A stretch of DNA of 32,628 bases from Planctomycetaceae bacterium (GTDB lineage Bacteria; Planctomycetota; Planctomycetia; Planctomycetales; Planctomycetaceae), in the NCBI GenBank assembly GCA_021732845.1, contig JAKFUF010000085.1:1-32628 (forward strand), in the 5' to 3' direction. The position numbers and the translations under genes were made by a program. Under the pieces are notes generated by a model. The model saw only the letters and a list, made by a program, of their open reading frames with translations. It was not told the DNA's origin and ran no database searches. Of this stretch, positions 9,055-31,723 are shown piece by piece (the stretch's first letter is position 1; each line of letters starts with the position of its first letter).

Positions 9055-10188
9055 TCACGGCGTGTGCACCGGTTCAGCAGTTTTCACACAGCGAAACCCA
9101 CAGTGATAGACGCCCGAGGTGGGTTCGCCTTTGCCGCGGGCCGAGCAGCGGTAGGCGGTGCAGTAGGTGTCGCTGCACAGGAATGAGCCACCGCGCTGGA
9201 TGCGTTTGGGGATGCCGGGTTCGTCGGGGTCTTCGCTGGAGTCGGGTCCCTGCGGGTTCCGGTCGGGGCTGTGCAGATAGTAGTCGGGCCGGTAGTTGTC
9301 ACTGCACCATTCCCAGACGTTGCCGGAGAGATCGACCAGGCCGTAGGCGTTGGGCGGGAACGTGCCCACGGGGGCCGTCGTGCGGAAGCCGTCGGCCTCG
9401 TCGTTGGTGAAGGGGAACTCGCCCTGCCAGATGTTGTTGAGCCACTTGCCGCCGGGGTTGCGTTCGTTGCCCCAGGGGAATGTCTGCCGGGGCTGGCCGC
9501 CGCGCGCGGCGAACTCCCACTCCGCTTCCGTGGGCAGCCGCTTGCCCGCCCACTGGCAGTAAGCCACAGCGTCGTTCCACGAGACATGGACGACGGGATG
9601 GTCCTGCTTTTTCTCGATGGACGATTCCGGTCCGTCGGGATGTTTCCAGTTCGCACCAGGGATGTACGCCCACCAGTTGTACGCACCTTTTGCGGCATCC
9701 AGGCCGTCGCGCGGCGGAGGCCGGAAGCAGATGGATCCGGGATGGTTGAGTTCCGGCTGAATCGTGGCGTTGGCCAGCGGCGAATCTGGTGGTACGACGA
9801 TCTTGGGCGGCTTCTCCGCTTCGGTCACATACTGCGTGGCTTCCACGAACTTCTGAAACTGGGCATTGGTTACTTCCGTGCGGTCCATCCAAAATCCGTC
9901 AAGCGCGACGGCGTGTTCGGCCTGCTCATCGGGATTGCCTTCGGCGTTGCCCATGACGAACGCGCCGCCAGGAACCCACACCATCCCCTCCGGCGCAGGT
10001 CCGGGCGGTGGCTCAGCGACAGCGGCTGGCTCCTCGGCGGCGACGGGAGCGGGCTTGCTCACAGTCTGTGCGACGGGCGTTTCTTTGATAACGGGGTCAG
10101 TGCAGCCGGTCATGGCTAACAGCAGCGCTGAAAGAATCGGGCTGCCAATGATGGAAAGCCCTCTGGAAAGCCTATGAACAGAACTCAT
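9055..10188 (-). CDS. Formylglycine-generating enzyme (SUMF1-family) lipoprotein
   Basis: A 377-aa SUMF1/FGE-sulfatase-family protein. The N-terminus is a lipoprotein signal with lipobox MTGC (C29), then a Pro/Ala-rich linker to about residue 66. The FGE fold follows: GMVWVPGGAFVMGN, WMDRTEVTNAQFQKFV, HPVVHVSWNDAVAYCQWAGK, RLPTEAEWEFAARGG, FPWGNE, GLVDLSGNVWEWCSD, and RIQRGGSFLCSDTYCTAYRC. In true FGEs two cysteines in that last block oxidise a sulfatase cysteine to formylglycine; here C338 and C343 match them with the same spacing of five. Many planctomycete SUMF1 paralogs lack this pair, so this one may be catalytic. The oddity is a lipoprotein signal on an enzyme that should act on unfolded sulfatases. 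Its substrate is unknown; no sulfatase gene is in the window. Confidence 0.85.
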   Translation of the reverse strand: MSSVHRLSRGLSIIGSPILSALLLAMTGCTDPVIKETPVAQTVSKPAPVAAEEPAAVAEPPPGPAPEGMVWVPGGAFVMGNAEGNPDEQAEHAVALDGFWMDRTEVTNAQFQKFVEATQYVTEAEKPPKIVVPPDSPLANATIQPELNHPGSICFRPPPRDGLDAAKGAYNWWAYIPGANWKHPDGPESSIEKKQDHPVVHVSWNDAVAYCQWAGKRLPTEAEWEFAARGGQPRQTFPWGNERNPGGKWLNNIWQGEFPFTNDEADGFRTTAPVGTFPPNAYGLVDLSGNVWEWCSDNYRPDYYLHSPDRNPQGPDSSEDPDEPGIPKRIQRGGSFLCSDTYCTAYRCSARGKGEPTSGVYHCGFRCVKTAEPVHTP

Positions 10189-10259
10189 GACTCACTCATC
10201 CTCGTCATAAAACGCCAAAAACTCTGGCAGCTCCGCGGAATCAATCAGGTCCATGAGGA

Positions 10260-24795: not shown

Positions 24796-26022
24796 TTATC
24801 GGTCCAGCTCTGCCGCGATCACATTCAGGCTGCCCAGCACGGCCACGATGTCGCTCACCAGATGCCCGCGGATCAGGTGCGGGAACATGGCGAAGTGGAT
24901 GTAGCTCGGCGGCCGGCAGCGGGCGCGATAGGCGATTTCGCTGCCATCACCCACGAGGTAGAAACCCAGTTCGCCATTGGGGGATTCAATGGCCGAGTAG
25001 CATTCCGCCAACGGTGTCTGGAAGCCACGGTTCGTCATCACAACTTCGAAGTGGGAGATCAACCCTTCAATCGTGTTGTAGACCTTGGACTTATCCGGCA
25101 GAATGGTCCGCTCGTCGGCGTCGACATTCACCGGGCCGGCCGGCAGGTTCTCCAACGCCTGGTGAATGATCTTCAGGCTCTCCGTGATTTCATCCATCCG
25201 CACCAGGTAGCGATGGAAGCAATCGCCCTCCTTCGAGCAGATGACGTTGAAATCGAAGTCCTGGTAGGACATGTAGGGCTGATCTTTGCGCAGGTCGCGG
25301 GTGACACCGCTGGCCCGCGCGATCGGTCCGGTGGCACTGCGACTGATCGCCTCGGCCTTTGTGAGGACACCGATGCCCTTGGTACGCTCGACAAAGATCC
25401 GGTTCCGATTGAGGAGCCGCAGCACGTCGGCAAACACGGCAGGAAAGGTTTTGAGCCACCCACGAAGCTCGCTGATAAACGCCGGCGTCAGGTCGTACAT
25501 CAAGCCGCCGGTGCGGGTGTAGCTGGTCGTGAACCGCGCTCCGCACAGCGTCTCAAACAGGTGCATCAGCTTTTCGCGCTCATTGAACGCGTACAGGAAC
25601 GCCGTGAACGCTCCGGTGTCCAGGGCACAGGCACCGTTGCACAGCAGGTGGTCGCTGATGCGGGCCAGTTCGACCAGGATCACGCGGATGTACTGGCAAC
25701 GCTTGGGAACTTCGATCCCCAGCAGCTTCTCGACCGCGTTGTGCCACGCGACGTTGTTGGCGAGCGGCGAAATGTAGTTCATCCGGTCCGTGACAGTCAC
25801 GTACTGGTTGAAATTCAGGTGCTCGCCAATCTTCTCGAAGCCACTGTGCAGGTAGCCGATATCCGGCGTGGCTTCCACGACGCGCTCGCCTTCGATCTGC
25901 AGCACAAGGCGCAGCGTGGTGTGCGTGGCCGGGTGTTGCGGACCAAAATTCAGCGTCCAGCGGTAATCCAACTCCTCAGAGGACGGTGTGTCCGGCCGGG
26001 ATGCCTCGAGTGCTGTCGCCAT
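24796..26022 (-). CDS. nuoD: NADH-quinone oxidoreductase subunit D (main operon copy)
   Basis: The 49-kDa-type subunit that forms most of the quinone headgroup pocket, 408 aa. By comparison with Thermus Nqo4, the quinone-binding His and Tyr are H34 (GPQHPATHTTLRL) and Y83 (TDRMNYIS), with the partner Asp at D135 (LDTGAF). Two departures from the usual consensus are T instead of G after H34, and N instead of D just before Y83. The rest is standard, ending LGSLNVIAAELDR. No nickel-binding CxxC pairs are present, so it is not a hydrogenase. Its ATG overlaps the nuoC stop as TAATG. A second, divergent NuoD lies at 30485-31723. Confidence 0.96.
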   Translation of the reverse strand: MATALEASRPDTPSSEELDYRWTLNFGPQHPATHTTLRLVLQIEGERVVEATPDIGYLHSGFEKIGEHLNFNQYVTVTDRMNYISPLANNVAWHNAVEKLLGIEVPKRCQYIRVILVELARISDHLLCNGACALDTGAFTAFLYAFNEREKLMHLFETLCGARFTTSYTRTGGLMYDLTPAFISELRGWLKTFPAVFADVLRLLNRNRIFVERTKGIGVLTKAEAISRSATGPIARASGVTRDLRKDQPYMSYQDFDFNVICSKEGDCFHRYLVRMDEITESLKIIHQALENLPAGPVNVDADERTILPDKSKVYNTIEGLISHFEVVMTNRGFQTPLAECYSAIESPNGELGFYLVGDGSEIAYRARCRPPSYIHFAMFPHLIRGHLVSDIVAVLGSLNVIAAELDR

Positions 26023-30484: not shown

Positions 30485-31723
30485 ATGAGCACGCAACTCG
30501 AAGATCCGCGGATTGTCGAATTCGACGTCCGCACCGACGAGATGCTGGTCAATATGGGACCGCAGCACCCCAGCACGCACGGCGTGCTCCGGCTCTTGCT
30601 GCGGACCGACGGCGAAGTCGTCCATGAAGTCACTCCGCACATCGGTTACCTGCACCGCTGTGCCGAGAAGATTGGTGAGAATCTCTCGACGCCGCAGTGG
30701 ATTCCGTACACCGACCGGATGGACTATCTGGCCGCGATGAACATGAATCTCGGCCTGGCGCTCACCGTCGAAAAGCTTGTCGGAATGGAAGTGCCCGACA
30801 AGGCGATGTGCCTGCGGGTCATCATTTGCGAACTCGGCCGTATCGCCAGCCACCTGGTGGGGATGGGGGCCTACGGTCTGGATCTGGGCAGCTTCAGCCC
30901 ATTCCTGTACGCCTTCCGCGAGCGCGAGATCATTCTCGACCTATTCGAAGAAGTCTGCGGCGCGCGGCTCACCTACAGCTACATCACTATCGGTGGCTCA
31001 ACCCACGATCTGCCCACCCAGATCACCATTCCGCCCGGTCTGGCTCAACTCGTCGGCAAGAGCCCGCGGACCACGCTGTCGTGGATCGACGCCTGTACGA
31101 TGTTCCTCGACTGGCTTGAGAAGCGGATTCCTGAATACCACTCACTACTGACTCAGAACGCGATCTTCATCAAGCGCACGGCGGGCCTCGGCGTTCTGTC
31201 CCGCGAGATGGCGATCGACTACGGCTGCACCGGCCCCGTCCTCCGTGGCTCGGGCGTCGACCACGACCTGCGCCGCGATGGGGACAAGATCTATACCCGG
31301 ATGTACAAGGGGTATGACTTCGAAATCCCCGTGGCTCCCTTCAAAGGGGCACCGCCGGAAGTCGTCGGCGGCGACAACTGGTGTCGGTTCTACGTCCGCA
31401 TGATGGAAGTCTCGCAGGCGATCCGGCTCGTCCGCCAGGCACTCGCCAAGTACCCGACCTCCACCGGTGCCTACCGGGTGCCGTTCAAGATGCAGACCAA
31501 GCTGCCACGCGCTGAAGTCTATCTCGAAACCGAAGCCCCGCGCGGCCAGATGGGCTTTTATCTGGTTGGCAACGACAGTGCCGAACCGCTCCGCGCCCGC
31601 GCCAAAAGCTCCTGCTTCTGCAACCTCTCCGTCACCGGCCCCCTCTCCGCCGGCTGCCTCATCGCCGACATCCCGGCCATCGTGGGGTCGCTGGATATCG
31701 TGATGGGGGAGATTGATCGGTAG
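30485..31723 (+). CDS. nuoD: Second NADH-quinone oxidoreductase subunit D (NuoD2)
   Basis: NuoD-type quinone-site subunit, 412 aa. It keeps the consensus residues throughout: H32 in GPQHPSTHGVLRL, Y81 in YTDRMDYLA and D133 in LDLGSF, matching Thermus His38, Tyr87 and Asp139. FLYAFREREIILDLFEEVCGARLTYSYITIGG, TGPVLRGSGVDHDLRRD and the terminus VGSLDIVMGEIDR are standard. It lacks the nickel-ligand CxxC pairs of group 4 hydrogenases. It is closer to the general complex I consensus than the NuoD of the main operon. No Shine-Dalgarno site precedes ATG 30485. It is the last intact gene of the cassette; decayed genes follow within 100 bp. Confidence 0.95.
   Translation: MSTQLEDPRIVEFDVRTDEMLVNMGPQHPSTHGVLRLLLRTDGEVVHEVTPHIGYLHRCAEKIGENLSTPQWIPYTDRMDYLAAMNMNLGLALTVEKLVGMEVPDKAMCLRVIICELGRIASHLVGMGAYGLDLGSFSPFLYAFREREIILDLFEEVCGARLTYSYITIGGSTHDLPTQITIPPGLAQLVGKSPRTTLSWIDACTMFLDWLEKRIPEYHSLLTQNAIFIKRTAGLGVLSREMAIDYGCTGPVLRGSGVDHDLRRDGDKIYTRMYKGYDFEIPVAPFKGAPPEVVGGDNWCRFYVRMMEVSQAIRLVRQALAKYPTSTGAYRVPFKMQTKLPRAEVYLETEAPRGQMGFYLVGNDSAEPLRARAKSSCFCNLSVTGPLSAGCLIADIPAIVGSLDIVMGEIDR

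Follow-up and report, generated by a model that had tools for sequence, protein, structure and literature searches.

The FGE locus and its surroundings

The stretch of DNA analysed here (the window) comprises 32,628 nucleotides of contig JAKFUF010000085.1 from a Planctomycetaceae bacterium (assembly GCA_021732845.1). On its minus strand it carries an ORF for a protein of the formylglycine-generating enzyme (FGE) family, which starts with ATG, ends with TGA and is predicted to begin with an export signal (Table 1). A scan of 18 ORFs of the window, the FGE included, revealed Pfam-matching neighbours such as UbiE, LRR proteins, a redoxin and complex I subunits, and a PF00884 search of the window detected no sulfatase. 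Two distinct genes for the 49 kDa subunit of complex I are present, at 24796-26022 (-) and 30485-31723 (+), the former of which sits among complex I genes. Between an LRR gene and the FGE start, a 20-codon ORF read by eye at 10192-10254 (-) (MDLIDSAELPEFLAFYDEDE) stops 3 nt ahead of the FGE ATG, possibly by chance.

Table 1. Features of the FGE gene, in window coordinates
Feature	Position	Strand	Basis
Probably exported formylglycine-generating enzyme (FGE), 377 aa	9055..10188	-	PF03781, 287.7 bits; nearest solved structures are FGEs
Predicted export signal, residues 1-28	10105..10188	-	Sequence; hydrophobic-stretch rule positive (row L094, the window protein)
Lipobox-like MTGC, residues 26-29, predicted lipidated Cys29	10102..10113	-	Sequence pattern
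Pro/Ala-rich linker, residues 30-66	9991..10101	-	Sequence; model pLDDT <50 over residues 1-45
FGE catalytic core, residues 67-370	9079..9990	-	Pfam match 67-369; pLDDT of AlphaFold model
Catalytic Cys338 codon	9175..9177	-	Alignment; Cys in 59/59 close relatives
Catalytic Cys343 codon	9160..9162	-	Alignment; Cys in 59/59 close relatives

The catalytic core

Pfam recognises a single domain in the protein, FGE-sulfatase (PF03781; cut-off 23.3 bits), a match that is necessary but not sufficient for a SUMF1-type FGE because inactive relatives share the domain. The active site reads GGSFLC338SDTYC343, a C-x4-C arrangement within the GGS[FY]xC motif of copper-dependent FGEs. These two cysteines had been proposed from the sequence to be the FGE active-site pair, and this identification is borne out by phmmer, which aligns them with the catalytic pair of both the S. 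coelicolor FGE (2q17) and the human FGE (1y1e), at E about 7e-80; we take them to correspond to Cys336 and Cys341 in the human numbering. The best phmmer matches among solved structures are the S. coelicolor, human and T. curvata FGEs, with E values of about 1e-72 to 1e-80, and SUMF2, PorK, CalU17, EgtB and PvdO follow far behind. Furthermore, the window protein is identical to the human and S. coelicolor FGEs at 20 out of 20 positions, in columns that had been chosen as conserved, and 12 residues drawn from these columns (E125, W173, W181, N290, W292, W294, D297, S335, C338, C343, F365 and R366) are also invariant in all 59 close relatives.

The fold prediction points in the same direction. 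The AlphaFold model, built with 24 sequences, has a mean pLDDT of 81.4 and a pTM of 0.81; most 10-residue blocks of the core exceed a pLDDT of 85, with a dip at residues 131-170. In a Foldseek search of the PDB with this model, ranks 1-26 were all FGEs, the best being 2q17 with a TM score of 0.88 on the target and 45% identity. With regard to NCBIfam, no model scored the window protein above its cut-off, the best being GldK (TIGR03525), which requires 350 bits and reached 161.2. All of the tested features of sequence and fold thus place the protein in the FGE family as a canonical member; among bacterial FGEs it is a variant in its predicted location.

The predicted N-terminal export signal

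Export of the window protein is predicted from its N-terminus (MSSVHRLSRGLSIIGSPILSALLLAMTGC), in which an n-region with arginine and an uncharged hydrophobic stretch precede MTG|C, as in lipoprotein signals. The lipobox and linker described in the original prediction can be read from the sequence, the putative signal ending in a lipobox-like MTGC29, which presumably fits the lipoprotein pattern PS00013, and leading into a Pro/Ala-rich linker. For a comparison across proteins, a simple rule was used that asks for 11 residues without D, E, K or R and with a mean Kyte-Doolittle value of at least 1.8, within the 80 residues before the core. Among the 60 proteins of the window's kind, the window protein included, 59 were positive, that is, 58 of its 59 close relatives; the only negative one, L136, became positive once 130 residues were read. 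A lipobox-like site was found in 27 of these 60.

None of the four cytosolic-type proteins from Planctomycetota passed the rule. Additionally, in a wider scan of genome records, 35 of 50 proteins that hold the cysteine pair and lack CNRYR after it were positive (a set that includes L161 and the doubtful L235), and none of the 15 that carry both the pair and CNRYR. The rule was also satisfied by 12 of 195 interior windows of 80 residues and by 272 of 1200 shuffled N-termini, so that hydrophobic composition alone appears to meet it fairly often.

Sulfatases and other candidate maturases in the genome

The genome is a draft in 262 contigs, listed as 95.68% complete, and a second maturase could therefore be missing from the assembly. 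All of its 59 PF03781 matches were translated and aligned. Five do not show the site, being partial matches or interrupted by a stop, and among the others the Cx4C pair is found in the window protein and in L008 only. L008 is fused to a Ser/Thr protein kinase, and its site is missing an insertion of three residues that FGEs share after the second cysteine; the window protein is left as the only canonical FGE among the readable domains. FGE-like domains that lack the full pair are thus greatly expanded in this genome, several of them lying in very long ORFs, and 33 of the 59 retain the second cysteine only.

No anaerobic-type maturase (anSME) was found in this genome, as judged by the lack of any SPASM match and by a best score of 38.9 bits for TIGR03942 against a cut-off of 349.45. 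The window FGE is therefore the only recognisable sulfatase maturase in the draft genome. With respect to the possible substrates, there are 33 PF00884 matches, none of them on the contig of the window, and among the 28 that were read 22 are full-length sulfatases. The motif C-x-P/A-x-R is present in 20 of these 22, L046 has CRPSL and L050 has neither, so the target cysteine itself is found in 21. All 22 begin with a hydrophobic N-terminal stretch, and a twin-Arg-like motif is seen in one (L032).

Relatives in Planctomycetota

A protein search of 294 Planctomycetota genomes at E 1e-55 returned 65 places in 59 genomes, all of which were read. Those scoring at least 270 bits (the window and L095-L153, 60 places) are referred to as exported-type, and the lower-scoring L155-L158, which hold the cysteine pair and have no signal, as cytosolic-type. 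The pair is kept in 64 of the 65 places, the exception being L154 at 238 bits. The survey of orthologs that had been suggested as a check of the active site therefore gave a uniform answer for the close relatives, as both cysteines are retained in 59 out of 59, and the loss of the pair that had been named as counter-evidence is seen only further away, in L154 and in two distant relatives.

These two, L248 (G121; GGSWLSSEQEGV) and L249 (G205; GGSWLSTDQTGV), are FGE-like relatives of the exported clade from one family of the same class that have lost the pair, and are classed as SUMF2-like pseudoenzymes. A further candidate feature, an extra disulfide between C211 and C367 as the mark of an oxidising compartment, was rejected. 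We take this to be the position of a disulfide of human FGE, and the two residues turned out to be uncoupled in the 59 close relatives (Cys211 in 17, Cys367 in 52, with five rows having the former without the latter), so that no coupled extra disulfide distinguishes the exported kind among them.

A second search with L155 as the query brought the cytosolic-type genomes to five by adding G242, and also hit a place in G259, which was left unread. Overall, exported-type FGEs are present in at least 55 of the 294 genomes and cytosolic-type FGEs in at least 5 (the G259 place being unread), and the premise that bacterial FGEs normally act in the cytoplasm is thus too narrow for this phylum as sampled, where the exported type is the usual FGE. 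The anSME-like proteins (E 1e-60) occur in at least 52 genomes, at least 46 of the 294 have an anSME over the cut-off, and 14 of the 55 exported-FGE genomes also have an anSME. In 41 of the 294 genomes the exported-type FGE is the only maturase found; this count is approximate, as are those of genomes without a maturase, with up to 6, 6, 8 and 7 candidates scored per genome in the searches. Each of these 41 genomes also yielded one or more sulfatase matches at E 1e-20, in a census that took the best 7 PF00884 matches per genome.

A sister genus without a recognisable maturase

Five genomes of a sister genus of the same family (g3; G048, G069, G181, G227 and G238) have neither a pair-keeping FGE at E 1e-30 nor an anSME over the cut-off. 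One of them, G238, consists of one contig with a listed completeness of 100% and has 102 sulfatase matches at E 1e-20, a few of which are pieces of one gene. The loci drawn from it (L257-L303) include 30 sulfatases that were read, 28 of them with the cysteine motif and all 30 with a signal, and 17 aligned FGE domains, none of which shows the cysteine pair, three of them not reaching that region. The sulfatases of G238 would thus either be left unmodified or be modified by a maturase of a new kind, and the same may apply to the organism of the window. Since these genomes are rich in sulfatases and lack both the FGE pair and anSME, another maturation route may exist that could also serve the organism of the window, and this result counts against the window FGE being the exclusive maturase.

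Wider distribution and phylogeny

In the scan of titled genome records, the best 80 of at least 579 relatives were kept. Signal-bearing FGEs among these 80 come from Bacteroidota, Verrucomicrobiota, Cyanobacteriota and Burkholderiales; signal-less ones come from Actinomycetota, Bacillota and Chloroflexota, among others. For a quick tree, 41 of the 63 pair-bearing phylum rows besides the window's and 64 of the 65 motif-bearing rows of the wider scan were combined with the window protein and the human and Streptomyces FGEs, 108 rows in all. In this tree, made without bootstrap, the window protein falls within a clade of 82 rows with an SH-aLRT of 95. When 130 residues were read, a signal was scored in 72 of the 82 rows inside the clade versus 1 of the 25 scored rows outside, with the window and Streptomyces rows set by hand and the human one unscored. 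The trait requires a minimum of 5 changes on the tree. Ten rows inside the clade have no signal by the rule; eight of them group together as a single subclade, L194 is truncated where its contig ends and L211 narrowly misses the threshold.

The human and S. coelicolor FGEs lie outside this clade, together with cytosolic-type FGEs, and export of the human enzyme and of the window's kind therefore looks separately acquired. The window protein does not present the features of the cytosolic S. coelicolor kind, having a signal by the rule and belonging to a separate clade (SH-aLRT 95 in the quick tree).

Sulfatases beside FGE genes

Of 146 FGE loci, 45 have a sulfatase-like ORF in the flanking sequence that was fetched, about 0.5-4 kb. 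Where the FGE has a signal, so does the nearest readable sulfatase in 19 of 20 cases, versus 4 of 15 where the FGE has none (Fisher p 3e-5), and counting every sulfatase gives 22 of 24 versus 4 of 16. Within 500 bp the corresponding figures are 15 of 17 versus 3 of 8 (p 0.017). The neighbour rule was revised after a first-pass result by resetting domain starts; its first version had given 19 of 25 versus 3 of 16 (p 5e-4). Eleven entries are left out of the test because an end was cut, a motif was missing, no domain start was set or the FGE did not have the pair; L170 is also excluded, as its FGE is identical to that of L116 (G110). Because the association follows phyla and an independent-pair test holds only 2-3 pairs, it is not significant once descent is considered.

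There are also departures from the pattern. Signal-less FGEs are found beside exported sulfatases at L156 and L220. A clear exception is L140 (G185; locus 1-2201), where 3 bp separate an exported FGE from a signal-less sulfatase; the other flanking sulfatase has a twin-Arg-like signal, and the genome also carries an anSME.

A proposed role in sulfatase maturation outside the cytoplasm

Quite likely, the product of the gene is an FGE that is exported, probably with a lipid anchor, and that matures the sulfatases exported by Sec once these have been translocated. The Sec system delivers proteins unfolded. As FGEs act on cysteine and the substrates of Sec arrive in this state, an exported FGE would suit the sulfatases of this genome. 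The copper- and oxygen-dependent enzyme would itself be secreted by Sec and loaded with copper in its new compartment; its Cys29 would probably be lipidated and its linker would tether it to a membrane, from where it could oxidise the cysteine of CxPxR or CxAxR in sulfatases emerging unfolded from the Sec channel. Formylglycine would then be made post-translocation, as in the eukaryotic ER. The original prediction had reasoned that an exported active FGE would imply sulfatase maturation outside the cytoplasm, and this part is favoured by the genomic evidence, with the g3 genomes counting against its exclusivity.

With somewhat less assurance, we also lean towards a broader reading, in which a Gram-negative clade of exported and often membrane-anchored FGEs, the main type in Planctomycetota, would carry out periplasmic maturation as a counterpart of the ER system that arose apart, and part of a sister lineage would use an undescribed maturase.

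The compartment is the point at which a different account could enter, namely that the window FGE works before or during export, either as a shorter cytosolic form starting at Met69 or as a precursor on the cytoplasmic face. Met69 sits at the start of the core and is a methionine in 53 of the 59 close relatives, GGAGGGG precedes its codon, and the signal-less FGEs adjoining exported sulfatases offer a precedent. However, the GGAGG lies 2 nt from this codon, a short spacing, the residue is absent in 6 of the 59 relatives, and human FGE also has a methionine at this position of the core in the phmmer alignment. Moreover, signal-like N-termini persist through the clade and lipobox-like sites are common in it, which would be needless for a cytosolic enzyme, and an action ahead of translocation is accordingly unlikely.

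Extracytoplasmic maturation of sulfatases also has to be weighed against other uses of an exported FGE fold. The enzyme might oxidise the cysteine of some exported non-sulfatase protein, the different substrate that the original prediction had allowed for. The fold does have other roles, with PvdO, EgtB and PorK among the sequence and structure matches, and PMC12452194, as far as its accessible text goes, describes fusions of FGE-sulfatase domains with domains of the bufferin and cytochrome c kinds. Nevertheless, the similarity is specific to true FGEs with a canonical site, 20 of the 22 sulfatases of the genome carry the target motif with no other maturase found there, and relatives' FGE genes have sulfatase neighbours, so that a non-sulfatase substrate seems quite improbable. 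The least probable account is that of an exported pseudoenzyme or scaffold resembling PorK/GldK. The accessible text of PMC12421860 presents PorK as an outer-membrane-associated FGE-fold protein judged inactive, just 2 of the 59 FGE domains of the genome have the pair, and L248 and L249 have lost it. The invariance of the pair and of the listed core residues in all 59 close relatives speaks against such a role, as does the score with the GldK model, less than half of its cut-off.

Relation to known systems

Human FGE (SUMF1) acts on unfolded sulfatases and shares with the window protein the core fold, the cysteine pair and the core residues, but groups with cytosolic-type bacterial FGEs, and the signal of the window protein is lipoprotein-like. 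The part of PMC4505483 available describes the human enzyme as ER-resident and places the prokaryotic FGE in the cytosol. The FGEs of S. coelicolor (2q17, 6muj) and T. curvata have 43-46% core identity to the window protein in the structure search and the same site; the S. coelicolor enzyme differs in belonging to the cytosolic-type part of the tree, in which T. curvata is not included. PvdO, which is periplasmic and takes part in pyoverdine maturation, resembles FGEs in its fold (TM up to 0.74 on the target) but is distant in sequence, with a phmmer E value of 1.1e-14 and, for the window protein, 79.5 bits versus a cut-off of 500.

The PorK/GldK proteins of the type IX secretion system are likewise exported FGE-fold lipoproteins, although both catalytic cysteines are absent from PorK (PMC12421860, in the text available) and present in the window protein, which also stays far under the cut-off of the GldK family. 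According to the accessible text of PMC6388578, FGEs convert cysteine to formylglycine and anSMEs (TIGR03942) also make it in sulfatases, from cysteine or serine; the latter differ in being radical SAM enzymes, and none exceeds the cut-off in the genome of the window.

An account of a bacterial FGE that is exported was not found in the literature searched, which comprised few subscription papers or preprints, nor in the accessible text of PMC6388578, PMC9723792, PMC10154612, PMC10880615, PMC4505483, PMC8746622, PMC4807772, PMC12421860, PMC12452194 and PMC5066984. If true, an exported FGE clade would change the site of sulfatase activation in bacteria that degrade sulfated polysaccharides, one anchored enzyme could serve many Sec-exported sulfatases, and a copper enzyme would be placed outside the cytoplasm. 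Exported FGEs could also provide aldehyde-tag enzymes that work outside the cytoplasm.

A signal-less subclade

The signal-less subclade nested in the exported clade comprises L187, L191, L198, L202, L206, L212, L214 and L218, from Pseudomonadota, Actinomycetota, Chloroflexota and an Eremiobacterota record. Its site reads GGSHLC in seven members and GGSFLC in L218. The sulfatases beside L187, L191 and L218 are also without signals, and one beside L198 passes the rule.
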